Source: a virus. From it: DNA of 64,000 nt. The number at the start of each line of letters is the position of its first letter. The first letter of the stretch is position 1. The DNA lies in the IMG/VR virus record IMGVR_UViG_3300023202_000205, positions 62,001 through 126,000 of that record. The stretch is one strand, 5' to 3'. This document shows, in pieces, positions 1 to 63,963 of this stretch. The translations under genes and the position numbers were made by a program. The notes under the pieces were generated by a model that worked only from the letters and a program-made list of their open reading frames with translations, had not been told where the DNA came from and made no database searches.

Positions 1-3000
1 TGTACAGGTTCCTCCTTATCGGGGGTGCTGGCAAGATACAATCCAGCCAGGTAGTCCTGCATCGGCTCCAGGTGGGTCTCGAAGGTACCTGTGAAAAACA
101 GGTTCTTGGAGGGCATCAGCTTCGTTTTAGCGTCTTGAATGGCCTCGGAGGAGGCTGGTACGTGGATATTGATCTGGTCACCATCGTAGTCACCACCGAT
201 ACCCTTGAGAGTATGGTAAGGCATGCCAATGGCGTCGTCATCCCGCAGCTTGCCCCACGCGCCCACATAGGCATAGCGATGAAGCGCGGGCGCGCGGTTA
301 TAGACCACGGGCCTTTCCTTCATCTCTTCTTCCAAAGCCTTTTGAGCAACTGGCTTACGTTCTTTAACTGCCTTCAGGGCGTCCGTCGCCTCCATCCCCA
401 ACCGTCGTAACCGACGGATAACGTAGGGTTTGAAAATCGTGAAAGCCATATCCTTGGGGACACCCACCTCATCCATGTCGAGTGACTTATCGGCTGTGAT
501 AACCCCACGTCCCACAGAATCGACAGCGGTCCCGATGACCTTACGCTGGTAAAAAGCACCCTTGGGACTCTGGCCGACACCGATAGCGTGTCGCAGAACG
601 CCTTTCACACCCTGCTCCGCAGACTTCTGGCTGACCGGATCCCTTGTACCCGAGATAGCCCCCACCGCTTGCATCATCGTCAGATACTCGTCACCAGCCT
701 CCCCGAATTGCTCCTTCGCACCCTTGTAGTTTTCCCGGGATTCGAGCAACTCGTGATACAAGTAGTTCAGGTCGTGAACCACATCGATACCACGAGCACT
801 TGTGATCGGCCGATACTTCGGGGGAACAACTGGGACCTTCGTGACCATTAGCTGTTCTGGGCTGAGCTCCATATTCTTAAGCCCAGCCAGGTAGTTCAGG
901 CGCTTGACCGCCTGGTCTCGCTTCGTCTTCCGCCCAGAGCGTATGGTCTCCTTGGCAAGTCCCATTTCCCGATCGATATTGATCGACTTCAATGCAGTCT
1001 GCACTGCCTGAGGGCCGGTTTCCCCATTGAGCTCTTCCTTGCCGGCTAGAACAGAGTCGAGCTTCTTACCCGTCACACCAAGCAACTTCTGGATGGGATC
1101 CAGGAATAGTGGGTGCGGTATCGGGGCGGGGAGCGTGATCTTGGCAAAACGAGACCCCTCTGCACCTCCTGTAGCTTTGATATCGAAGAGCCCACCCGGT
1201 ACAGGTTTCATTGTTTCGAAATTGAACGTACCAGGATTCTCAACCTCATGATCTGCCAAGGTATCCACTTGGTCGTCCGTCAGAGGTGTTAGTTGAGAAC
1301 GTGTGCCTTTCTCCCGGACATTAACCCCGGCTCCGCGAAGCAGATCCTTGAAGCGCTGGTTGGCAAAGCTCTCTGAGGGAGCTATCGGTTCCTCACCCGC
1401 GCGAATGGCTCGCCAGTAGTCATCATTGCGCTGCCCACGGACTAGTTTGGCGTCACGTAAGAAGTTGGTAGCCCCCGCCGCAAGCAGCGCGTGAGCATCA
1501 AGCATGCTAATCCGCTTACTACCTTCTTTGCCACCCTTGGCCGGGATGCCCTCAGTCGTATACGTACCAACATCTCGAGCGCCAAGTTTGCTTTCAGCCA
1601 TGTGATGGAGCTTCATGAAGTAGCTCTCGCCAGTAAACACATTCGGGATCTTGGATCCATCCCTCGGGTCCGTAAGCGTCTCGGTATCGCGAATCTTCCC
1701 GGTTACCGGGTCCTGCTCGATAACGCCATACTTGAGCGCCTCTTGAAGAGCGAACTCCGTCACGTCTTCCGTGTCAAAACCCTTCACCGCGTAAGGTTTG
1801 CCGCGCTTACGGGCAGCTTTGCCCAGTAGCGACTCGGCTAAGGCGCCCGGATTGGTACGACTAACGATACCCAGGGCGTTGGCGATTACCTCAATGGGGC
1901 GCCCCTCTGAGTCGAGTGGCATTTGATCATCCGGCCGGATCTCCGAGATAACGCCTTTGTTGCCAAAACGACCTGACAGCTTATCTGCACCACGCATGGC
2001 GTCATACGACTTCACGGTAACCTTGATTCCCTTGGGTGTACGATTTACGTCCGTCACCACCCCAGGGGCGTGGTGGTCCCACCGCTGGGCATGGTCGGTC
2101 GTAGTCGATCGAGGGCTGCTCATCAGCGCGCCAACAGCCTTCTTGCCCTTCTTACCAAACCCCAGAATAATCGGATCCCCTGGCTGCAACTCAGCCCCTA
2201 CCTTTATGACACCGTCATCCCCGATCTTTTTGTACTGATCGGCATCAAACTTGTCACTGTAGATCGCCTGATACGACTTCTTATCTGTCGAGTCCACATC
2301 AGAAAGGTCCAAGTCGCTCTTGTAGAGGGCCTCGCTAGTCAACTTCTTAGCAGCACTTTCGCTGATGACGAAAGCGTCTTCAATGGTATCCCCCTCAGCA
2401 GCCATGAAAGCTACCCGCAAGTTGCGGCCAATAGCTGCAGTACCCTTGTCGTCAGTGAAGTTCGACTTGGCAAGCAACTGACCAGGCGTGACAAAGTCGC
2501 CCTTCTTCACCAATGGGGTGTTATGGATCATCGTTTTACGCGCTGACGGGTAATTGTTGTACAGGTCGACAACCTTGTTTTTACCATCAGCTGTACGGAT
2601 CTTGACCTCATCAGGGGTCACGGCGATTACCGTACCCTGCACAGGCGTATAGGCCGCACCCACATAACGCCCCATGGCCTCATGGGTATTCTCTCCGCCA
2701 GGTCCCTTGGTCTGTACTAGAGGTGCCTCCGGCTCTCGCAGTGGCATTGCCTGCTGCGTCATTCGAGCCCCCATCAACAGACGCTGGCCCTTGATGGACT
2801 GCGGGAAAGGAATCATCGCCGTAGCCCGAGACATCATATTCCCAGGGTCTGGGATGGCGTAGTCCACCTCCTCTTTGGGGACATACTGGATTTTGTCGTC
2901 CTTGATGGCTGGGACCCGTTTGGCGTCCTTTTCCATCTCACCAGGGAATGAGATCACTTTGGTAGAAAGTGTTCGCGCGGACACAACTTCTTCTTCGCCC

Positions 3001-4379
3001 GTCTTGATATTCCTTACCGGGGTGTATAGCTGGTTATCGCTCCCCTTCAGGGCTGCATCTGTCGCTCGAAGATCCAAGCCCAACTTGCTGGACTCCGGAC
3101 CTCGGACAGGGTCGATAACGCCAATGTAGCTCGCCTGTACTCCACGAGCACCTCGGCTGACAGCCTGCTCGCTTGAGATGCCACCCTCCCCCATGCGTGT
3201 AATGGCTTGTCGCTGATCATGCACTTCGAACGGGTTGATGTCCTCAACGGAAAGCGCAAGGCCTGAGCCCTCGAAAAGGGATCCAATGTTCTTATCCATA
3301 ACGCCAGTAGGGATCTTCATCTTACCTTGCCTAGCTGACCGCCAGAGCAACTTACGTAGCGTGCCCGCAGGATCTCGCTGCAAACGCTCCCGGATGTAAT
3401 CCTCAGCACCATGGATCGACTGGAAGGCAGGAGAGTCCCGGTTGTCGCTCTTCTCCTCGTTCCTGGCTACGCGGATCACTTTACCCGTGGCGTCCAACAA
3501 CGTGCCGGTTGATAACTGGTCGATCGCCTTGCCAAGTGTCAACTCGGTAGTCTCAGGGTCTACCTGGGCTTTATCTAGAATATCACGGAAAGCTTCGGGA
3601 AGCAGGTCTTCGTCGACGTCGGTCTTCTGCGACCCCAACTTTCCCACCACCTTCTTGAGATCCTTGATGTCGTTGGCCGAAGGCGCTCGGTAGTTCTTGT
3701 TGTAAAGCTCCTCTCCCCAGCGCTTCTTGATGTCCTCATCCGAAACGCCTAGCTGACGAAGAAGTGGATAGAGCCTCGTCGTCGACTGACCGATCTGCAT
3801 CTTGAAAAGACCGGTCTTCGGTTCGAGCAAGATACGGAAGGCTCGCCCGGTACCGGGCTTGATGTTGAAGTGACTCTCAGTGCCCCCATCTGCGCGGGGA
3901 CGAGTGTAGACCCCCGGTCGAAGGCGTGCCTGGTTCCGCAAAGACCAGACCACCCCTTTACGAATGAAGACACCACGGCTATTCAAATGTGGGATGCGAG
4001 CCAACGTAACACGCTGCTCGTCAATTGGGGTCTCGGTAGCCTTGTCTACAAGACGTACCGTACCTCTCAGTGGACGATGCAGGGAAGTTCCCTGCATGAT
4101 CATCTCTTTCTCGTCACGCTTAGCTGGCGTGAAAGGTCCCTCGTAGCCAACATCCGTCACTTCCAGACGGTGTGTCGCATTTTCAACAGGTTTCATTCCC
4201 TGCAAGGCTTCGACGGCAGAGTTATAGATGTCCTCCCGTTGGGTATCCGAGTCATCAAAACGCCGCAACCGAACTGGGCGCGGAGCAGCCACAGGGCTCT
4301 GACTGGCTAGATTACCTGGCTGTACCGGATCCAGTGGAGCTGGAGGGTTTATAGGATCCAGCGGAGAAGCTAGAGCCAT
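1..4379 (-). CDS. rpoBC: Fused beta/beta-prime multisubunit-type RNA polymerase (3' end outside window)
   Basis: DNA-directed RNA polymerase catalytic chain. The reading frame opens at ATG 4379 and stays open for 1459 codons to the window edge, so the C-terminus is missing. Reading in order: beta-like N-terminal region (GVFIRKGVVWSLRNQARLRP, like the beta segment before the lobe), then the beta signature SGRFGNKGVIS near residues 802-811, then DQMPLDSEGRPIEVIANALG, then YFMKLHHMAESKLGARDVG, which is the beta C-terminal region. The same chain continues into beta-prime: GGLFDIK, PPVPPKYRPI, GRGVITADKSLDMDEVGVPK, NRAPALHRYAYVG, and the metal-binding motif GGDYDGDQINIHVP with Asp1397, Asp1399 and Asp1401, followed by PMQDYLAGLYLAS. 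I saw no beta-prime N-terminal zinc-finger cysteines. No alpha or omega subunit lies in the window. It is the last visible gene of the head/ejection block, with a weak ribosome site 5 nt after the previous stop. Homology is certain; virion packaging is inference. Confidence 0.95.
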   Translation of the reverse strand, partial: MALASPLDPINPPAPLDPVQPGNLASQSPVAAPRPVRLRRFDDSDTQREDIYNSAVEALQGMKPVENATHRLEVTDVGYEGPFTPAKRDEKEMIMQGTSLHRPLRGTVRLVDKATETPIDEQRVTLARIPHLNSRGVFIRKGVVWSLRNQARLRPGVYTRPRADGGTESHFNIKPGTGRAFRILLEPKTGLFKMQIGQSTTRLYPLLRQLGVSDEDIKKRWGEELYNKNYRAPSANDIKDLKKVVGKLGSQKTDVDEDLLPEAFRDILDKAQVDPETTELTLGKAIDQLSTGTLLDATGKVIRVARNEEKSDNRDSPAFQSIHGAEDYIRERLQRDPAGTLRKLLWRSARQGKMKIPTGVMDKNIGSLFEGSGLALSVEDINPFEVHDQRQAITRMGEGGISSEQAVSRGARGVQASYIGVIDPVRGPESSKLGLDLRATDAALKGSDNQLYTPVRNIKTGEEEVVSARTLSTKVISFPGEMEKDAKRVPAIKDDKIQYVPKEEVDYAIPDPGNMMSRATAMIPFPQSIKGQRLLMGARMTQQAMPLREPEAPLVQTKGPGGENTHEAMGRYVGAAYTPVQGTVIAVTPDEVKIRTADGKNKVVDLYNNYPSARKTMIHNTPLVKKGDFVTPGQLLAKSNFTDDKGTAAIGRNLRVAFMAAEGDTIEDAFVISESAAKKLTSEALYKSDLDLSDVDSTDKKSYQAIYSDKFDADQYKKIGDDGVIKVGAELQPGDPIILGFGKKGKKAVGALMSSPRSTTTDHAQRWDHHAPGVVTDVNRTPKGIKVTVKSYDAMRGADKLSGRFGNKGVISEIRPDDQMPLDSEGRPIEVIANALGIVSRTNPGALAESLLGKAARKRGKPYAVKGFDTEDVTEFALQEALKYGVIEQDPVTGKIRDTETLTDPRDGSKIPNVFTGESYFMKLHHMAESKLGARDVGTYTTEGIPAKGGKEGSKRISMLDAHALLAAGATNFLRDAKLVRGQRNDDYWRAIRAGEEPIAPSESFANQRFKDLLRGAGVNVREKGTRSQLTPLTDDQVDTLADHEVENPGTFNFETMKPVPGGLFDIKATGGAEGSRFAKITLPAPIPHPLFLDPIQKLLGVTGKKLDSVLAGKEELNGETGPQAVQTALKSINIDREMGLAKETIRSGRKTKRDQAVKRLNYLAGLKNMELSPEQLMVTKVPVVPPKYRPITSARGIDVVHDLNYLYHELLESRENYKGAKEQFGEAGDEYLTMMQAVGAISGTRDPVSQKSAEQGVKGVLRHAIGVGQSPKGAFYQRKVIGTAVDSVGRGVITADKSLDMDEVGVPKDMAFTIFKPYVIRRLRRLGMEATDALKAVKERKPVAQKALEEEMKERPVVYNRAPALHRYAYVGAWGKLRDDDAIGMPYHTLKGIGGDYDGDQINIHVPASSEAIQDAKTKLMPSKNLFFTGTFETHLEPMQDYLAGLYLASTPDKEEPV

Positions 4380-13742: not shown

Positions 13743-14540
13743 CTAGGAGATCGTAGACAACGCAGACGCTAACAGGTTGTCCCAGTTGACTTGGGCGTCG
13801 ACTGCATGGACGTCATCAATATCCAAAAACGGTGTAAAATCGGCAGCTTTCTCCATGTCAGGCACCTCTGACGTTAGAATCCAGTTGGCGCGACTCTGAT
13901 AAGGGATGCCCATGTGAAGCGGCGCTGCTTTGAGAATCTCAGCTACCTGCCTTCCTTTACGCTCGAGTGTATCCGCTACTGACCTCATGGATGGTCCGTG
14001 AAACCGATCGATGACGTTGACGTACATATGCCGGCAGCGCTCACACATCGTACCAAGGTAGCCCTCAAGGATCTCATTCCCCCCGTCATAAGCATCGGCA
14101 CACCCGAAGTCCCACTCATCAAAATGATCCTCGTAGAACCGTGCGGCGTCCTCTATAACGATGTTGAGTCTTCCCTCATCCATGTAGTGGACCAGGAGGG
14201 GGTAGTTATCCAACGCCACTTGGACCATTACCGGGTCAATCTCGATAATCGTCAGATCCACCCGAGGAAAGTTGTAAAGCAGCTGCACAGCGCCGGACCC
14301 GCTCCCGAGACCCACCATGGAGGCTGTAGCGCTTGGGTTCATAACGGCACCCAACATCCACCCGAGTGGGTAGATGGAGCTGGATATCGGCCCAGGAGCT
14401 CCGTATGGAAGTGACTCGTGAACGATGGCTGCTGAAGGCCTTAGGTAAGAAGCCCCCTGCTGTTGTCCATTCAGGAGCAGGATCCGTTGCTGGCCATGGT
14501 CTACGACCTCGATAACACCGAAACGTCCTTTACGCTGCAT
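13743..14540 (-). CDS. Spermidine-synthase-like SAM-dependent enzyme
   Basis: 265 residues with a class I S-adenosylmethionine-binding fold of the polyamine aminopropyltransferase type. Motif I is VGLGSGSGAVQLL (residues 76-88). The end of beta-strand 2 is TIIEIDPVM, with acidic Glu100 and Asp102. Beta-strand 3 is NIVIEDAARFYE with Asp131, and WDFGCADAYDG marks strand 4. In spermidine synthases this architecture precedes catalysis on decarboxylated SAM. The usual catalytic Asp-Thr/Ser-Asp segment reads ADAYDG here, so the substrate is uncertain, and simple methyl transfer is also possible. It overlaps the end of the 1002-residue virion-block gene by 11 nt, which implies coupled expression with structural proteins. 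Confidence 0.75.
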   Translation of the reverse strand: MQRKGRFGVIEVVDHGQQRILLLNGQQQGASYLRPSAAIVHESLPYGAPGPISSSIYPLGWMLGAVMNPSATASMVGLGSGSGAVQLLYNFPRVDLTIIEIDPVMVQVALDNYPLLVHYMDEGRLNIVIEDAARFYEDHFDEWDFGCADAYDGGNEILEGYLGTMCERCRHMYVNVIDRFHGPSMRSVADTLERKGRQVAEILKAAPLHMGIPYQSRANWILTSEVPDMEKAADFTPFLDIDDVHAVDAQVNWDNLLASALSTIS

Positions 14541-17538
14541 CGACCGGAGCCCTCACCGCGTCCTCTTGCTCCTTCTTCTTACGCTTGAGATAACGAACAA
14601 GTGCCCTGGCCCGCGCACGATCCAACTGCCGGTAAGGCTTATTAGTCGCAAGCCCCATACTGGCATAGAAGTCCGTCAAAGCCTCCGTCGGGTCTACTGC
14701 CTCAAACCCCTCAGGTACCTGAGGAGTTTCCCCAACACGAAGACCAACACGGTATCCATGGAAACCCTCATCTGGAATACCCGATTCAGGCACAAAAGGT
14801 ATCTCCGACTCATAAGGAGCAGGCTTACCTGGTCCTTCCGTAGGCAGTGCAAAACGCCGCTGCGGCAACCTCCGAACAACCACCTTCCCCTCTGGCGTCA
14901 GAAGTATGTGCTGCTGCAGCGGTTTGAACTGCGCGACATCAGCAGTCTTATGTTGATCCACGCCCCCCGTACTCGCCCGATCCTTTTGGTCGAGCGTAGC
15001 CTGGACAGGTTGTTGCTGGGCAAACTCGATCTGCTCAGTGGCTTCTGGAGTATCGTCGAAGACTTCCGACTGTACGTCCTGAGAAGAATCCCTGCTCCGC
15101 AGGTGCGTATTCCCACCAAGATCAGGGTCAAGCTGCCCGGGAGACGGAATAAGCGCTGCCCTCTTTAGAATAGCCGAATAGTCGAGCCCCGTCTTCGTAG
15201 CAGCACCGGCGTTTGCCGCCAGTTGTTGCTGCTCATTCTCCGTAGGGCCAATCACGCCAGGGGCTGGCTGATTCATAGCTGTACCGGGGGCCTCCGTCTT
15301 TACCGGGAGTGCTGGGTTTTGCGCCCCATTGTCCAGCTCAGCAAGAATCTCTTCCTCATCCTCCGTATCGGGAATGGTCGCGATCTCGTCGTCATCCGCA
15401 GCTCCCGTACCAATCGTCTGGTCAGGGATCTCAGCGGCGGTCACCTGCATACCTGGTTGGGGTTGCTGCAAAGGCTGGGAAGGCATCTGAGGAGGAGCCG
15501 CATGCTGGGCCATGGGAGGTTGGCCGGTAGCCTGCTGACCCTGCTGTCCCTGCATCAACTGCCTGACAAAATTCTGAGCAACGAATTCAGGATCACCTTC
15601 CTCCAATCGCTGCTGAGAAGGGAGGGGCACCTGCTGACCACCTTGAGCAGGTGGTTGCTGGGCTGGCATACCCGCTTGGTCAGCAGGCGGCTGGTCTGCG
15701 CCCTCCGGAGGAGGAGGCGGAGGGGCAAAAGCCGCACTCTGCGCCTGCTTGGCTGCTGCATATTTGTTGTATGCCAACTCAACCCTCTGAAGCACCTCGA
15801 TAGGGGGCTCCATCGCGTGCTCAGTATAGGTGTCCGCCAGCTTGACTGCTCGGGAAAGCTCAGACAGGAGCTCCTCCGAGGCATGTTTGAACTTGCCTGC
15901 ATCCTCAATATCCCCGACCTGCGTATGCTTCTGCTCTACCTTATGAGCTGAAGTAAGACCATCGGCAGTACGAGCACTACCTGGAGCAGTCTTAGGCTTC
16001 TCGGTAGCAACGGCGTGTATATCGGTGTTAATCTGATCCGTCCAGGTCCCTCTCTGACCGCTACTATAGTCCGTTTCATAATCGTCATGACGCACCTGCT
16101 CCCCATAAGCAGAACCAGCTTGTTTAACCGGTTTGAGAGAAGACTTCACTTTGGCTAGCCGCTTAGCGTTGGCTACGAGCTGGCGGCGCTCCTCGTTATT
16201 GCGCTTTGCCCACCCCTGATCCTCTCGGTCGATCAACTCCTTTAAGCGGGAGAGGACCTTATCGAACGGCATCAACTCGAAGTCTTCCTGGTCGTCGTGA
16301 GTGATGCCTGCCTCACCAGCATCTACCCCGAAAAAGAAGTACGTGCGCTCTCCATCGAAATCTGAGTTATCCCAGAACTCGTTGCCACTATCCTTTGGCC
16401 ACACGGCCTCAACTGTACCAGCGTTGTAAACATTGATAGGGTGGCGGTTCGACTCTTCGATCGTCTCACGAATGGCGGCGTCTCGAGGCTGCTCGCCATC
16501 ATCGACACCCCCACCTGGAAACAGGAGATAGTCGCCTTTATCAATTGCGTAAACCCCACCCGTGTTGAATAGAATCATCTCCGACCGAGGCCGTAGCTTG
16601 TTCTCAGGAGCGGAATCGTGGTGATCAACGAGAGGCTCCCGCTCTTCACCAGCTGTTTTCCCCTGCTCAGAACCTCGCCAAAGACGGCACCAGTGCTCCG
16701 GCTGGATCTCGCCCCGTACCTGTGAGCAGATGTACTTGCCACTCACCACTTTCTGAAAGGCGAACTTGCAACTACCGCACTTCTGCTCCCCTCGGGGCTC
16801 CTTTTTGTAGGTTGCCAGCTCTTTGGACATCTTGTAATTAGGCGTTCCCGACCCGAGCAGGTAGTAGAGCAGTGGAGTCTCCCGCTGCTCCTCTTCCGGC
16901 AATTTGTGGAACCGCTCGATAGCCTGCTGTACCCCTGGAGGGGCATCTTTACCTGCTCCTGGGTAGTGGGTCAGGTTACCGTGCTCATCCTCACCTCTAC
17001 GCTCCAAAAGCCTCTGATACATCCCCTTGATGTCTGCAGACTCCGCCGCCAACTTACCATTCTCGATCAATTGGTCCTGCTCAATCTGGCGAAGCGCCAG
17101 CTTGATCTGCGCCTCTTCAATCCACTCACTAATTTTGTGGAAGCCAACAGGCATACCCGAAGAGTAGCGGTCCACCTTTTCAATGTACTTCATGAGATTA
17201 GCGTTACTCGGACGGGCTGGGTTACCACCAGTAGGGGTCGTATAGAAAGGTTCGTTTCTCTTGGGGGAAAGATCCTGCTCGTCTTTCACACCAGCCTCCT
17301 TGGTCACAGCCTCCAGCGCCTCTATAGCTGCTTCTACATCTCGTCGTGTCCGGGCTTTGGTAGCCTCGACTACTTCAGAGATCGCGCTTACAGGTAGGTC
17401 TGCTACCCGCTGAGCAAGCGTTTTGTTCTTTTTGCGAGTAGGGCGCTTGGCATCAGGTACGCGTTTATACGACTTCCGTGAGCCGATGACGTCACGCAGT
17501 CTCTTACCCAAGCTCGAGGTAAACTGTGGCTGATTCAA
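14530..17538 (-). CDS. Large virion-block protein with Cys4 motif and Nudix domain
   Basis: 1002 residues, TTG start overlapping the previous stop. The N-terminus is basic and helical. At residues 254-284 there is a four-cysteine motif: Cys254-x2-Cys257-x13-Cys271-x12-Cys284, ending PEHWCRLW. It resembles the small high-potential iron-sulphur-like or zinc motif seen in some phage head proteins. Residues about 317-430 form a Nudix hydrolase domain: the box starts at Gly343, with Glu349, Arg357, Glu358, Glu361 and Glu362 in the GX5EX7REUXEE pattern. Nudix enzymes hydrolyse nucleoside diphosphates linked to another moiety. The C-terminal half is low-complexity Gln/Pro-rich linker followed by a small ordered domain with a Lys/Arg-rich end. 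A capsid or decoration role with an attached enzyme is an inference. Confidence 0.75.
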   Translation of the reverse strand: MNQPQFTSSLGKRLRDVIGSRKSYKRVPDAKRPTRKKNKTLAQRVADLPVSAISEVVEATKARTRRDVEAAIEALEAVTKEAGVKDEQDLSPKRNEPFYTTPTGGNPARPSNANLMKYIEKVDRYSSGMPVGFHKISEWIEEAQIKLALRQIEQDQLIENGKLAAESADIKGMYQRLLERRGEDEHGNLTHYPGAGKDAPPGVQQAIERFHKLPEEEQRETPLLYYLLGSGTPNYKMSKELATYKKEPRGEQKCGSCKFAFQKVVSGKYICSQVRGEIQPEHWCRLWRGSEQGKTAGEEREPLVDHHDSAPENKLRPRSEMILFNTGGVYAIDKGDYLLFPGGGVDDGEQPRDAAIRETIEESNRHPINVYNAGTVEAVWPKDSGNEFWDNSDFDGERTYFFFGVDAGEAGITHDDQEDFELMPFDKVLSRLKELIDREDQGWAKRNNEERRQLVANAKRLAKVKSSLKPVKQAGSAYGEQVRHDDYETDYSSGQRGTWTDQINTDIHAVATEKPKTAPGSARTADGLTSAHKVEQKHTQVGDIEDAGKFKHASEELLSELSRAVKLADTYTEHAMEPPIEVLQRVELAYNKYAAAKQAQSAAFAPPPPPPEGADQPPADQAGMPAQQPPAQGGQQVPLPSQQRLEEGDPEFVAQNFVRQLMQGQQGQQATGQPPMAQHAAPPQMPSQPLQQPQPGMQVTAAEIPDQTIGTGAADDDEIATIPDTEDEEEILAELDNGAQNPALPVKTEAPGTAMNQPAPGVIGPTENEQQQLAANAGAATKTGLDYSAILKRAALIPSPGQLDPDLGGNTHLRSRDSSQDVQSEVFDDTPEATEQIEFAQQQPVQATLDQKDRASTGGVDQHKTADVAQFKPLQQHILLTPEGKVVVRRLPQRRFALPTEGPGKPAPYESEIPFVPESGIPDEGFHGYRVGLRVGETPQVPEGFEAVDPTEALTDFYASMGLATNKPYRQLDRARARALVRYLKRKKKEQEDAVRAPVDAA

Positions 17539-42254: not shown

Positions 42255-42450
42255 GTACTCTTTCGGCCATAGAACCCATGACCAGGCTGAAATGGTGGCA
42301 GCACAGATAAGCTGTCAGATTGTGTATTCCAGTAGGTGCTGTCTGTTCCTCTCCTACTTTGTGCATCGCCGGTGCACCACAGCGCGGCTCTCCTTCGTCA
42401 GAGCGAAAATTGCACAATTCGCCCCGGCAGGTTGGATGTTGTTCATGCAT
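42235..42450 (-). CDS. Cys/His-rich small protein
   Basis: 71 residues from ATG 42450 with GGGGGAA upstream. HPTCRGELC, EPRCGAPAMHKV and YLCCHH give six or more potential zinc ligands. First gene after the non-coding repeat zone. Confidence 0.6.
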   Translation of the reverse strand: MHEQHPTCRGELCNFRSDEGEPRCGAPAMHKVGEEQTAPTGIHNLTAYLCCHHFSLVMGSMAERVHGCGSE

Positions 42451-42660
42451 CGCGTTCCCCCTTGTTGTGTAGTAAAAATGACGGGCTGCCACACTTTATA
42501 CTGCGGCCCGCCGCGCAGCTCACTTAACACTGTTAGCAGGAGTGCATCCCGGCTCGCGCCGGTGTCATTGAACCAACAGTGCCCGCTCTACCATCACAAG
42601 TGTGGCTGGTGGATAGAGCGATTCAGCTCAAATTATATCCCTTTTATCGTAGATGCGCCA

Positions 42661-42981
42661 GTCACAGATACCAAACCTCTAAGCGGGCATAGCGAGGAGT
42701 ACCAGGGCCAGACGATCCACCTCGGCACCATAGTCAGTCACAGATACCAAGCCTCTGAGCGGGCATAGCGAGTGAGCGCGGGGTAGCTAACAGTCATTTA
42801 GGGGGCGTCACAGATACCAAGCCTCTGAGCGGGCATAGCGAGCACCCAACGGATCCCTCGTTCTCAGGCACAGTCACAGATACCAAGCCTCTGAGCGGGC
42901 ATAGCGAGCTCAGCACAGCGCTGGTCGGTGGGCGCCCGCTGGTCAGTCACAGATACCAAGCCTCTGAGCGGGCATAGCGAG
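42661..42981. repeat. CRISPR-like array: five 36-nt direct repeats with unique spacers
   Basis: Repeat copies at 42661-42696, 42737-42772, 42807-42842, 42873-42908 and 42946-42981. Plus-strand ends of the repeat: GTCACAGATACCAAGC ... GAGCGGGCATAGCGAG. Four copies are identical; the copy at 42661 has two substitutions and is the one furthest from the conserved hairpin, as expected of a leader-distal CRISPR repeat. Spacers are 40, 34, 30 and 37 nt and unrelated. Against CRISPR: no cas gene in the window, uneven spacers, and single copies elsewhere. On the minus strand the order is hairpin, repeat, spacer, repeat. Confidence 0.6.
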
Positions 42982-43046
42982 AGGGCCTTTATAACTAGGT
43001 TCATGGAACCGTGTTATATCGATATCCGCGAGAGCCCTCATCTCAG
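42982..43046 (-). ncRNA. Conserved hairpin adjoining the array (copy 1)
   Basis: About 65 nt that recur next to the single repeat at 43721. On the minus strand three helices can form: GGGCUCU with a partly matching AAGGCCC, UAUAAC with GUUAUA, and GGUUC with GAACC around CAU. It could be an array leader or a structured RNA. Confidence 0.45.
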
Positions 43047-43173
43047 CTGATCCTAGCACCCTTTAGATCACTGCAATATCTCCACCTAAACCACTATCAG
43101 CAAAGAACATCGAGCGCCTCCCAGGTTTTCCCGACCAGAAAGGCGCTCGAAACTTGCTGACAACCCTCACTCA

Positions 43174-43189
43174 GTGTTCACGCGAACAC
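43174..43189. promoter_or_regulatory. 16-bp palindromic operator-like site, copy 6
   Basis: GTGTTCACGCGAACAC. No leftward gene starts near it, but on the plus strand a GAGGAGG ribosome site and ATG 43208 follow 18 nt later, the same spacing as copies 7 and 9 on their strand. Confidence 0.8.
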
Positions 43190-43207
43190 TTTCTGTTCGA
43201 GGAGGCT

Positions 43208-43267
43208 ATGGACGATGGTGTGCGTGATGGCAGCGATCCGAGGATGGTTCGGGTTCTGCTAGAATAG
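43208..43267 (+). CDS. Possible 19-residue plus-strand leader peptide
   Basis: ATG with a perfect GGAGG 3 nt upstream (GAGGAGGCT before ATG), 19 codons, ending inside the tail of the convergent HTH gene. Supported only by the ribosome site and the palindrome spacing. Confidence 0.25.
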   Translation: MDDGVRDGSDPRMVRVLLE

Positions 43268-43651
43268 TACAGATAATTTACCTATGAGGCGTCCGATCTC
43301 CTCCGCTGGCACACGCCAGAGGTGAGGTCCAAGCTTACGAGCTTCGATACGGCCGTCTCGAGCCATGCGACGAACAGTCTCCTCACAAAGGCCTAGAATC
43401 GTCGCCGTTTCTCTGATGGTATAGGCTGAGTCTGAAACGATACAGACATCCAGCTTCTGATGGGAAGGGAGCCACCGCCGATCACCAATGCGGACGATCA
43501 ACCCAAGCTTCTCCGGATTACCCCAGGCGGGTTCTGTGCCGCGCTCCCAGAGCGAATCCGTCATCGATTTGGCTGGATTTTGATAGACCGCCCTGACGAA
43601 CTCGGCTTCCAAGTCGCTCAGTAGGTCGTTTAGCAGAACTGCTCTGCTCAT
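43259..43651 (-). CDS. HTH protein, excisionase/MerR-like
   Basis: 130 residues. The C-terminal domain AYTIRETATILGLCEETVRR, MARDGRIEARKLGPHLWRVP (residues 77-115) is a helix-turn-helix with a wing, the HTH_17 or excisionase type, and binds DNA. The N-terminal 70 residues are helical and unassigned. Lies between the repeat array and the single repeat with hairpin, so it could act on those elements or on the nearby palindrome. No recombinase is visible nearby, so a transcriptional role is as likely as excision. Confidence 0.8.
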   Translation of the reverse strand: MSRAVLLNDLLSDLEAEFVRAVYQNPAKSMTDSLWERGTEPAWGNPEKLGLIVRIGDRRWLPSHQKLDVCIVSDSAYTIRETATILGLCEETVRRMARDGRIEARKLGPHLWRVPAEEIGRLIGKLSVLF

Positions 43652-43720
43652 AATGCACTCCTTTATTGGTTTGAGTTAATGGTTTACGTATGTCAGATAC
43701 GTCAGTGTCAGTCAGTGTCA

Positions 43721-43756
43721 ATCACAGATACCAAGCCTCTGAGCGGGCATAGCGAG
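43721..43756. repeat. Single copy of the 36-nt repeat beside a hairpin
   Basis: Identical to the array repeat except for the first base (A for G). Preceded by short iterations of GTCAGTGTCA at 43701-43720 and followed directly by hairpin copy 2. Confidence 0.75.
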
Positions 43757-43820
43757 AGGGCTCTTATAACTCGGCTCAGGGAACCGTGTTATATCGCTAT
43801 CCGCGAGAGCCCCCATTTCA
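43757..43820 (-). ncRNA. Conserved hairpin (copy 2)
   Basis: Paired with the repeat it forms a 100-nt composite about 85-90% identical to the one ending the array. On the minus strand GGGCUCU/AGAGCCC, UAUAAC/GUUAUA and GGUUC/GAGCC pair fully. The A-to-G difference in the third helix turns a U-A pair into U-G, which keeps pairing only on the minus strand. Confidence 0.45.
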
Positions 43821-43994
43821 GTCGACCCTAGCTTTATCCCCCTCGCCATGGGTTTCCCGCTCTCCTGCCAGATACAGCAGGTCTCGAACGGTGATGTGAA
43901 CAAACTCGCCGGGCCTGCCTTGTTCACGAGCCCAGTCGATAATCGACTGGATATGGTCAGGCCATTCCTGCTCTCCTTCAGTCTCCTCCGTCAT
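43818..43994 (-). CDS. Small acidic hypothetical protein
   Basis: 58 residues from ATG 43994 with GAGCGAG upstream; overlaps the previous gene by 17 nt. Acidic N-terminus, then a helix pair (HIQSIIDWAREQGRPGEFVH, VRDLLYLAGERE). Not recognised. Confidence 0.5.
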   Translation of the reverse strand: MTEETEGEQEWPDHIQSIIDWAREQGRPGEFVHITVRDLLYLAGERETHGEGDKARVD

Positions 43995-44223
43995 AGTCTC
44001 GCTCTCTTTCGTGATAGGGCTCTGGATAAATGGCCAGGGTACATTTGACAATGGTGAACGGGGCTGACTTACCCGTTATACGCTCTTTGGCCAGCTCAAG
44101 CGCTTCTCCCTGTGTACGAGCGAACGTACCCCATCGGAACGCACCATGACTGGTAACAGCACAGTAACCGGGTACTGCCTGCTGCTTCACATATCCTTTC
44201 TTATACCGTGGTGGAATACTCAT
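43978..44223 (-). CDS. Small hypothetical protein
   Basis: 81 residues from ATG 44223 with GGGAGG upstream. Single alpha/beta domain with GAFRWGTFARTQGEALELAK, a pattern like small phage DUF proteins in which a Trp-containing beta hairpin precedes a helix. Function unknown. Confidence 0.6.
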   Translation of the reverse strand: MSIPPRYKKGYVKQQAVPGYCAVTSHGAFRWGTFARTQGEALELAKERITGKSAPFTIVKCTLAIYPEPYHERERDYDGGD

Positions 44224-49418: not shown

Positions 49419-49454
49419 GTCACAGATACCAAGCCTCTGAGCGGGCATATCAAG
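49419..49454. repeat. Single 36-nt repeat copy with altered end
   Basis: Matches the array repeat over the first 30 nt, but the end reads CATATCAAG instead of CATAGCGAG. In the 278-nt gap between genes, same orientation as all other copies. No hairpin partner follows. Confidence 0.7.
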
Positions 49455-61471: not shown

Positions 61472-62143
61472 TGGGGTGCCGAGATTTGATGGCTCACCCT
61501 CCTGTTCAGCCTGGCCTTCCTCGTTTTTACGAACGAGTGCCTTGTGGATCGTCGACGTCTCCTCCCGCCACTGCTGGATCTTGCCCAGGACATAACTCAA
61601 TTGAGTAGTACCGCTCCGAGAGTAATGCTCCGCACCCGCCTCATTCCAAGGCATGGGCCAGAGACAAGCCCCACCACCACGGGCCCGGAACTGCTGGACG
61701 TGACGCATACTATCGTCGATCAGAAACGTCAGAGGGCCCGCCGCAGCTGCCTTCCTCGGCGTGATCATGAAATCTCGGAAAAACCGATTACAGAAAAAAT
61801 CCTGCAACCACTGGACCTTTCCACCCGCAGCCGAAGGGTCCACGCTGGGAGACGTGCAAATCACTACCCGACAAGAGGTTGTGTCATGTAAGGTGTTGAA
61901 CAGCATTCTCGCCCACGGGAGAGGCTCCAGGTTGCTCCAAAAAGCGGCTCCCTGGGCATGAAGCGTATCCCACATATCGCTTTGCGTTTCCCAACCGAAA
62001 TGCTTTTCGACACCCCAGTCAGGTGGTGGGTTGTGAAAGTGGTCCGAATCCCGGTTCTGGGATGCGTAGCCCGCGACGGCTTTGACGAAATTGGTCAAAA
62101 CACCATCCATGTCCAAAAGGATCACTCGCTCACCCTTGTTCAT
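61466..62143 (-). CDS. HAD 5'(3')-deoxyribonucleotidase-like phosphatase
   Basis: 225 residues. HAD motif I is LLDMDGVLTNF with nucleophile Asp11 and acid Asp13. Motif II is VVICTSPS (Thr97/Ser98). Motif III Lys131 is in MITPRK and motif IV in TFLIDDS (Asp143, Asp144). EPLPWARML and GKVQWLQDFF are typical of the NT5C deoxyribonucleotidases that dephosphorylate dNMPs. With MazG and the exonuclease it suits nucleotide-pool remodelling. The C-terminal tail is acidic and disordered. Confidence 0.85.
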   Translation of the reverse strand: MNKGERVILLDMDGVLTNFVKAVAGYASQNRDSDHFHNPPPDWGVEKHFGWETQSDMWDTLHAQGAAFWSNLEPLPWARMLFNTLHDTTSCRVVICTSPSVDPSAAGGKVQWLQDFFCNRFFRDFMITPRKAAAAGPLTFLIDDSMRHVQQFRARGGGACLWPMPWNEAGAEHYSRSGTTQLSYVLGKIQQWREETSTIHKALVRKNEEGQAEQEGEPSNLGTPS

Positions 62144-63528: not shown

Positions 63529-63963
63529 TTACGCGTCCTGCTCTCCTTCTTTTTCCTCTTGCTCTACAATCAGACGGTCCAACGCCTCGTTGAAACTCAT
63601 CCCCTCGGTCCGCAACTGGTCGAGCCGCTTGGCCAACTCCCTATCGGCCCCTACCCTGCGCCACATACCAATCCGCTCCGACCCGCTCCTGGCCCTCGGA
63701 GGTGGATCACCAAGGTCGTAACATATCTGGTAACCTGTCACAGATACCAAGCCGCTGAACGGGCATAGCGAGCCGGCGAGATGGGTAGCGACGGAATCAG
63801 CCGTATCAGAGCTCCTCACACCAACTAGGTTGTCCGTAGTCCCGCAGTTTTGGAGCCCCGAGCCCAAAAACGTAGTCCAGCTAACCCCAGTAGCGCTCGA
63901 AGCTAGCAAGCTTCCCGAACTTTGGCACTCCTGGCCCTCTCTGCTCTCCGTCTCCTCCTCCAT
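63529..63963 (-). CDS. Hypothetical protein containing a repeat copy, start uncertain
   Basis: 144 residues from ATG 63963, which has GAAGGAG at good spacing. The N-terminal 95 residues are Ser/Gly/Thr-rich and atypical. The C-terminal 45 (VGADRELAKRLDQLRTEGMS, NEALDRLIVEQEEKEG) look like a genuine helical domain. ATG 63666 with GGAG upstream could be the real start. The repeat copy at 63737-63772 falls in the doubtful part. Confidence 0.45.
   Translation of the reverse strand: MEEETESREGQECQSSGSLLASSATGVSWTTFLGSGLQNCGTTDNLVGVRSSDTADSVATHLAGSLCPFSGLVSVTGYQICYDLGDPPPRARSGSERIGMWRRVGADRELAKRLDQLRTEGMSFNEALDRLIVEQEEKEGEQDA
63737..63772. repeat. Single 36-nt repeat copy, most right-hand
   Basis: Same family as the 42.6-kb array with two substitutions (CCGCTGAAC for CCTCTGAGC). 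Same orientation as the other seven. Either intergenic or inside the doubtful N-terminus of the last gene. Confidence 0.7.

Follow-up and report, generated by a model that had tools for sequence, protein, structure and literature searches.

The stretch of DNA under study, called the window below, comprises 64,000 nucleotides and corresponds to positions 62,001 to 126,000 of the 179,364-base virus record IMGVR_UViG_3300023202_000205 (G000 in coordinates). At its left end lies the minus-strand gene of an RNA polymerase (RNAP) chain, termed chain 1, in which sequences of the bacterial-type β and β′ subunits are joined. Chain 1 is a single open frame of 1488 amino acids (aa) that ends 88 bases to the left of the window start. 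The probability of a stop-free run of this length in base-shuffled sequence is very low (log10 P about −27), and none of the other five frames of the region stays open for more than 189 codons. An earlier sequence-only reading had noticed one uninterrupted frame with hallmark motifs of both subunits, and had named recovery of the missing 3′ part, profile searches, structure prediction and phylogeny as ways to check it. The frame proved to be open throughout, and its missing end was recovered from the record. The motifs GRFGNKG, PIEVIANALG, MKLHHMAESK, NRAPALHR and GGDYDGDQ are present as quoted; the one given as PPVPPKYRP actually reads VPVVPPKYRP. Coordinates of the polymerase genes and of their putative partners are collected in Table 1.

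Table 1. Polymerase genes and putative partner genes. Positions are those of the window unless preceded by G000.
Feature	Position	Strand	Remarks
Chain 1 (β and β′ N-terminal part)	1..4379	-	residues 1-1459 of 1488; in-frame bases 3-4379
Chain 1, last 29 codons and stop	G000:61913-62000 plus window 1-2	-	outside window; stop at G000:61913
β part of chain 1	1308..4379	-	residues ~1-1024; Pfam Rpb2_6; end opposite E. coli β C-terminus in alignment
β active-site lysine region ADKLSGRFGNKGVIS...EVIANALGIVSR	1800..1997	-	residues ~795-860; aligned to E. coli β 1060-1110
Fusion junction	1182..1343	-	residues 1013-1066; β C-terminus ..GAGVNVREK, then β′ N-terminus HEVENPGTFNFETMKPVPGGLFD; alignment
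β′ N-terminal part	1..1307	-	residues ~1025-1488; Pfam Rpb1_1, Rpb1_2; phmmer to β′ chains over 1107-1487
Clamp-helix pair	651..773	-	residues 1203-1243; alignment, and two adjacent helices in model (segment residues 944-966, 970-984)
Catalytic loop GGDYDGDQ (E. coli: NADFDGDQ)	174..197	-	three Asp retained: D1397, D1399, D1401
Chain 2 (β′ C-terminal part), 632 aa	G000:56681-58579	-	Pfam Rpb1_5 (PF04998) E 3e-18; left of window
σ factor, 216 aa	G000:19338-19988	-	σ region 3 1.4e-10, region 4 5.4e-7 (Pfam); left of window
Portal-protein homolog, 629 aa	10858..12747	-	23% identity, E 8e-54 to Arash gp204 (annotated portal)

Profile searches matched Pfam models of both subunits strongly to this one chain: RNA_pol_Rpb2_6 at residues 582-941 (E 9e-50), Rpb1_2 at residues 1346-1419 (E 1.1e-18) and, below its own cut-off, Rpb1_1 at residues 1145-1223 (E 1.9e-8). 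A phmmer comparison with solved structures gave bacterial β as the best match (7.9e-67) and, further along the chain, residues 166-554 of Escherichia coli β′. While β is undivided, β′ is cut after the double-psi β-barrel: chain 1 (overall >800 aa) stops 86 residues past the DYDGD of the active-site loop, and the sequence resumes in chain 2, which is encoded 3.3 kb downstream and matches β′ from about residue 640 onward (2.8e-37, phmmer against solved structures). The division leaves ~460 aa of β′ in chain 1 and 632 aa in chain 2. Three genes (139, 292 and 585 aa) lie between the two; neither Pfam nor PHROG gave any of them a match below E 0.1. The polymerase core encoded here is therefore predicted to be made of two chains, β with the N-terminal part of β′ and the C-terminal part of β′. 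Since the rest of β′ is a separate gene, the fused core of the sequence-only reading holds only in part: β and β′ sequences do share one bacterial-type polypeptide, but only the N-terminal part of β′ is included.

As judged by alignment with the E. coli enzyme, this phage keeps the GNKG lysine region, the three catalytic aspartates, the clamp helices, the bridge helix and the trigger-loop histidine. The N-terminal zinc ribbon of β′ is deleted in all five phage sequences aligned. The clamp-helix pair is what we take to be the counterpart of the docking site for σ region 2 in E. coli. An AlphaFold2 model of chain 1 residues 260-1459, made with 31 relatives, had a confident fold (predicted local distance difference test (pLDDT) score 83.4, predicted TM-score (pTM) 0.72), and its best match in the PDB was bacterial β (E 2.6e-52). 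When BFVD was searched with this model, the best query TM-score among the 50 matches listed was 0.40.

The fused segment was found by tblastn in four named phage records of 181-188 kb, over 96% of its length and at ~30% identity: Salmonella phage Arash (OQ632216) and Vibrio phages D69, D181 and D148. Like the phage studied here, all four combine a fusion of β with the N-terminal part of β′ and a separate gene for the β′ C-terminal part. In Arash, these are gp206 (1525 aa) and gp216 (606 aa), and D69 has the same gene pair. Arash also shares the chain limits, a portal gene (annotated as such) upstream and a related σ (gp10/gp196). Apart from the low identity, the four differ from this phage in that their DYDGD is preceded by AA instead of GG, and the Arash group keeps the cysteines of the second zinc site, which are lost here. 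Since the same two-gene layout exists in named phages such as Arash and D69, an assembly error or a frameshift, either of which would have undone the sequence-only reading, is very unlikely. The distinct class that it envisaged does differ in layout from the polymerases of phiKZ and AR9, but it is not unique to this phage: the four named phages have the same fused segment, and a complete β-β′ frame occurs in many viral contigs.

In D181 and D148 the fused segment was found in two pieces. Unlike in this phage, a homing endonuclease gene interrupts the chain 1 gene of both; that of D181 (L011:13468-14416) leaves frames of 532 and 1006 aa. Such an insertion is a possible snapshot of how these genes get cut.

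Viral contigs scanned with chain 1 alone yielded no close relative, and alignment with Arash and D69 was required. With the three fused chains as query, 24 loci were obtained. A scan seeded by three complete chains revealed relatives in 227 contigs, the best 80 of which were used, and another seed set gave 173 relatives, of which again the best 80 were used; the lists overlap, and the sample favours complete chains. Bacterial genomes were scanned with the alignment of chain 1, Arash and D69, and none of the 66 stretches that matched a pattern was a relative. Profiles for β, β′-N and β′-C, with the β/β′ border set slightly inside β′ at residue 1050 of this phage (column 1019), were then run on 186 loci, which include this phage, the named phages and duplicates, so that one contig may count repeatedly.

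All three profiles fell in one open frame in 141 of the 186 loci. Ten loci were two-chain, 18 were cut by a contig end and 17 were of other kinds. The last comprise seven with β and β′-N in separate frames (two of them, L026 and L027, alike, and the only ones of the seven with a separate β′-C gene within the examined stretch), four named outgroup phages, four broken frames (L086 with many frames, L099, and L101 and L277 with two) and two loci, L021 and L029, without the remaining parts in the stretch examined. The broken frames stand outside the fused count, but the tree labels L086, L099 and L101 as fused. Counted as distinct sequences, the best-scoring relatives include at least 88 complete fusions of β with the whole of β′. 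From stop to stop these have a median of 2101 residues (range 2010-3033; 74 are of at most 2250 residues and 14 exceed this), and their catalytic motif is NADFDGD in 82, NADFNGD in 3, NADFDGN in 2 and GADFDGD in 1.

Among the complete fused frames of more than 2180 residues, taken together with L078, nine have inserts of 352-512 aa at conserved positions, which we call intein-like from their location and ends only. Six frames (five distinct, L112 being identical to L113) have them at the NADFDGD catalytic loop and three at the β TPE|S motif, while one frame (L036) has them at two other sites. The remaining carriers are L047, L093, L100, L116 and L119.

Two trees were made, neither including mReC, archaeal or eukaryotic sequences. 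The FastTree analysis covered 160 taxa (78 of them bacteria) and 1805 columns, after removal of six duplicate loci, six loci with less than 60% coverage, 21 rows more than 93% identical and L213-L286. All phage chains formed one clade apart from bacteria (support 1.0, stem 1.12) with two subdivisions: the fully fused chains (0.999), and this phage together with the Arash type and the β-apart forms (0.93). The IQ-TREE analysis of 34 taxa (10 bacteria) gave SH-aLRT/ultrafast bootstrap supports of 100/100 for the phages, 94/77 for the fused group and 81/87 for this phage with the other split forms; the β-apart forms were sister to the Arash type (100/100). The stem of the phage clade measured 1.03-1.12 in the two trees and the branch of this phage 1.17-1.24. 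The phylogeny thus sets the phage chains apart from the bacteria, and placement within a bacterial fused rpoBC clade, which would have spoken against the sequence-only reading, finds no support in the tree with 78 bacteria, a set without Helicobacter, Wolinella or Wolbachia.

The position of the cut in the β-apart forms was read from a combined profile, in which the true end of β falls at about column 995 (995 in E. coli, 994 in YerA41 and 996 in Carin-5). The β frames run past this point, to column 1085 in L026, 1086 in L028 and 1084 in L032, and the frames that follow begin at 1085, 1088 and 1085; about 90 columns of β′ are thus carried on the β gene. In the other β-apart loci, the start of the β′-N profile likewise lies on the β frame. 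Because the cut sits inside β′ and not at the β/β′ border, a β gene with such a tail is most simply explained as a cut fused gene. The ancestor of the whole phage clade was probably a single full β-β′ chain, since β′ is uncut in the fused clade and in almost every outgroup bacterium; cyanobacteria are a known exception with a cut β′ (PMC7598289).

Descent of AR9, YerA41 and Carin-5 from a fused ancestor was also considered and is unsupported, since the scar was seen in none of the three: YerA41 and Carin-5 showed no β′ tail on β, and AR9 C-β had no match past column 917, so that no tail was seen there. Va2 and RHph_Y65 were examined for β′ only. Cobetia phage Carin-5 (L212:4541-8394) encodes a different, more divergent polymerase with an undivided β′ and an annotated σ gene directly upstream.

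Partner genes were searched for in 29 records, which may be genome fragments: that of this phage, 19 fully fused contigs, seven two- or three-chain contigs, Arash and D69. The putative σ factor of this phage matches a PHROG σ family (1.6e-15) and Arash gp10 (5.7e-14); Pfam σ region 2 was not found in its record. Across the 29 records, region 2 was present in 14 (each over the cut-off), region 3 in 25 (20 over the cut-off) and either in 26. Nineteen σ frames from other stretches, together with those of this phage and Arash, formed one iterated profile family; because the 19 stretches were picked by their region 3 match, the occurrence of region 3 in 21 of 21 is no independent test. Neither α nor ω was found in any of the 29 records, although the same searches detected them in 13 of 14 and 14 of 14 control genomes, and PF01000 (α) was likewise not found in the record of this phage. 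The enzyme may make use of host α.

The portal homolog of this phage lies on the same strand as the polymerase, ~6.5 kb upstream; the sequence-only reading, which put the polymerase at the end of a virion gene block, was right in that it lies downstream of a portal homolog. In 153 of 178 loci with the β N-terminus (duplicates included), a portal homolog precedes the polymerase on the same strand at a distance of 9-8989 bases; no best match lay downstream, and 25 loci had no match in the flank examined. The portal label derives from the Arash annotation and from four PHROG families that match members of the alignment, all called portal, one of which matches 11 of 25 members; the homolog of this phage itself has no PHROG match. 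The σ gene lies near a homolog of the baseplate-wedge-like protein of this phage (phrog_6, 7.3e-6) in this phage, in Arash and in 9 of the 19 other σ stretches, while none was seen within the other ten. The large terminase subunit (TerL) of this phage matches phrog_675 (2.5e-49); the terminase family named for mReC is PF03237.

From sequence, gene layout, conservation and the presence or absence of partners, we consider it likely that chains 1 and 2 form the core of a phage-specific, σ-dependent RNAP from a large, fused-then-cut clade, in which covalent linkage replaces α and which is probably carried in the virion. Chain 1, with both catalytic barrels, would assemble into a core with chain 2, which carries the bridge helix and the trigger loop. 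A dedicated phage σ would direct initiation at phage promoters through the clamp helices and the flap, and the β-β′ linkage would take over the assembly role of the α dimer. The ancestral single chain would have been cut first after the β′ barrel, as in this phage, Arash and D69, and a later cut inside β′ would have produced the forms in which β and β′-N are apart. With the core gene placed after that for the portal and the σ gene close to a baseplate homolog, the likeliest use of the enzyme would be as a late product, packaged in the virion for the next infection.

Several observations weigh against this reading. In its catalytic loop this phage has GGDYDGD instead of NADFDGD. Among the five aligned phage sequences it has the shortest β flap tip and is alone in having lost the cysteines of the second zinc site, and the trigger-loop arginine is absent in all five (serine here), the histidine being retained; given these changes, the enzyme of this phage may be unusual or weakened. 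Three of the 29 records have no match to σ region 2 or 3, and a k-mer search of this genome for promoter motifs returned CRISPR-like repeats and no promoters. The sister relation of this phage and the Arash group has moderate support in both trees, and the fused group, almost fully supported by FastTree, is less so in IQ-TREE; fusion and cuts may thus have followed another order.

The enzyme might simply be one of the mReC polymerases of Weinheimer and Aylward (2020), with nothing here beyond that study, a reading that is plausible without being quite probable. That study likewise dealt with bacterial-type phage β and β′ in a distinct deep clade apart from bacteria, described there as subunits with an NADxDGD motif, and partly drew on an earlier IMG/VR release (PMC7481178, sections on mReC). 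The 82 of 88 fused frames with NADFDGD would pass its motif filter, and overlap of mReC with the fused group is likely. As to the 800 aa or more of an mReC β′, the β′ of this phage is spread over two chains, of which chain 1 exceeds that length as a whole. However, the GGDYDGD of this phage does not pass the stated filter, the capsid signature PF07068, reported for 8 of 97 mReC contigs, was found in none of our 29 records (the T4 control matched at 1.6e-122), and the same sections mention fusion for crAssphage only and σ nowhere. The representative mReC contigs (3300017989, 3300000786) were not seen by eye among the relatives listed, which are partly best-80 lists. Phage β/β′ enzymes were already known (mReC, 2020), but in the main texts of the open-licence literature we found neither a phage polymerase of this type, made as one β-β′ chain, nor its fission described; the relevant sections of PMC11835377, PMC12619734 and PMC12153180 held nothing further on fusion. 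As for packaging, the enzyme could instead be made during infection for middle or late phage genes only and stay out of the virion, a serious possibility that we would place on the doubtful side of even. Our case for packaging is drawn from gene order, and AR9 and phiKZ use a separate non-virion RNAP for later genes (PMC7598289); a portal gene within 9 kb upstream in most loci fits a late-made virion part better, as does the σ gene beside a baseplate homolog, and the record of this phage has a single PF04997 match, in a search that a divergent second enzyme could escape.

Decay of the polymerase, leaving the phage to rely on the host enzyme with its own σ, would account for the altered loop, the lost zinc site, the short flap and the long branch. 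We think it improbable, since both frames are intact, the three catalytic aspartates, the GNKG lysine region and the trigger-loop histidine are all retained, and the predicted fold is confident. Even less credible, to the point of being very improbable, is the idea that a fused rpoBC was captured recently from bacteria of the Helicobacter/Wolinella type: fused β-β′ is known in those genera (PMC3294249), but the phage clade sits on a long stem outside the bacteria sampled (those two genera not among them), the five aligned phage sequences lack the β′ zinc ribbon and no α gene was found.

Within this clade, cutting goes in one direction and leaves a scar open to residue-by-residue checking. A core that is one chain, free of α and served by σ would be a simple tool to define the minimal requirements of bacterial RNAP, and since named phages such as Arash and D69 exist, the model is testable. 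A wider generalisation, to which we give rather less than an even chance, is that there is a large phage class with a self-contained, α-free, σ-dependent one-chain β-β′ core, loaded into the virion beside the portal, from which the forms in two or more chains, this phage included, arose by gene fission, with the scar inside β′ as its trace and the homing endonuclease gene of D181 as a cut under way. Phage polymerases in several pieces would then not have to be survivals of a pre-cellular enzyme made of many parts, and the α platform could be replaced by covalent linkage.

The CRISPR-like repeats returned by the k-mer search form three arrays with one common leader, at window 42663-42977 (minus strand), G000:165056-165633 and G000:171936-172824, with 5, 9 and 13 repeats of ~32-36 nt and spacers of 23-44 nt. 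A 626-aa Cas12u1/Cas12f-like protein is encoded at G000:166465-168345 (PADLOC 9e-71, 2.6e-69; no Pfam match), and together they apparently make up a phage-encoded type V CRISPR system. Rfam gave no match in window 42300-44000. Lone copies of the repeat occur at window 43723-43752, 49421-49450 and 63739-63768 and at G000:36525, 129415 and 168437; two stand behind a similar leader and one is 17 bases upstream of a reading frame. Elsewhere, a 1002-aa protein (window 14530-17538, minus strand) has a NUDIX domain at residues 337-431 (Pfam 2.5e-10), and a 259-aa protein (G000:42150-42929; L003:12150-12929) has several helix-turn-helix matches and a recombination endonuclease VII domain (2.7e-17).

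Jumbo-phage polymerases have four- or five-chain cores, without α, ω or a σ homolog recognisable by sequence in the accounts given by PMC7598289, PMC7824862 and PMC13282480, although phiKZ gp68 structurally resembles σ (PMC13282480). The phiKZ and AR9 enzymes share with that of this phage the lack of α and ω and a β′ cut after the active-site barrel; they differ in that β is also cut, into at least two chains, that there are usually two enzymes, virion and non-virion, and that no σ homolog is recognisable (PMC7598289 and PMC7824862), whereas σ regions 3 and 4 are recognisable here. The layout is therefore unlike the phiKZ type, as the sequence-only reading had it, with β whole inside chain 1. 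PMC7824862 argues that split phage polymerases are relics from before the last universal common ancestor (LUCA) and not cut cellular enzymes. The clade described here offers a counter-example in kind to the pre-LUCA argument, not a test of those jumbo phages. The fused polymerase of Helicobacter and Wolinella is a cellular enzyme with α, and its β′ is uncut. What it has in common with chain 1 is the covalent joining of β and β′ (PMC3294249). The single-chain polymerases of crAss-like phages and YonO, like this phage, have both barrels in one phage chain; the crAss RNAP has no detectable match to β/β′ profiles and YonO is highly divergent, according to the comparison in PMC7481178, and unlike the crAss-like enzyme, chain 1 matches the Pfam models of both β and β′.

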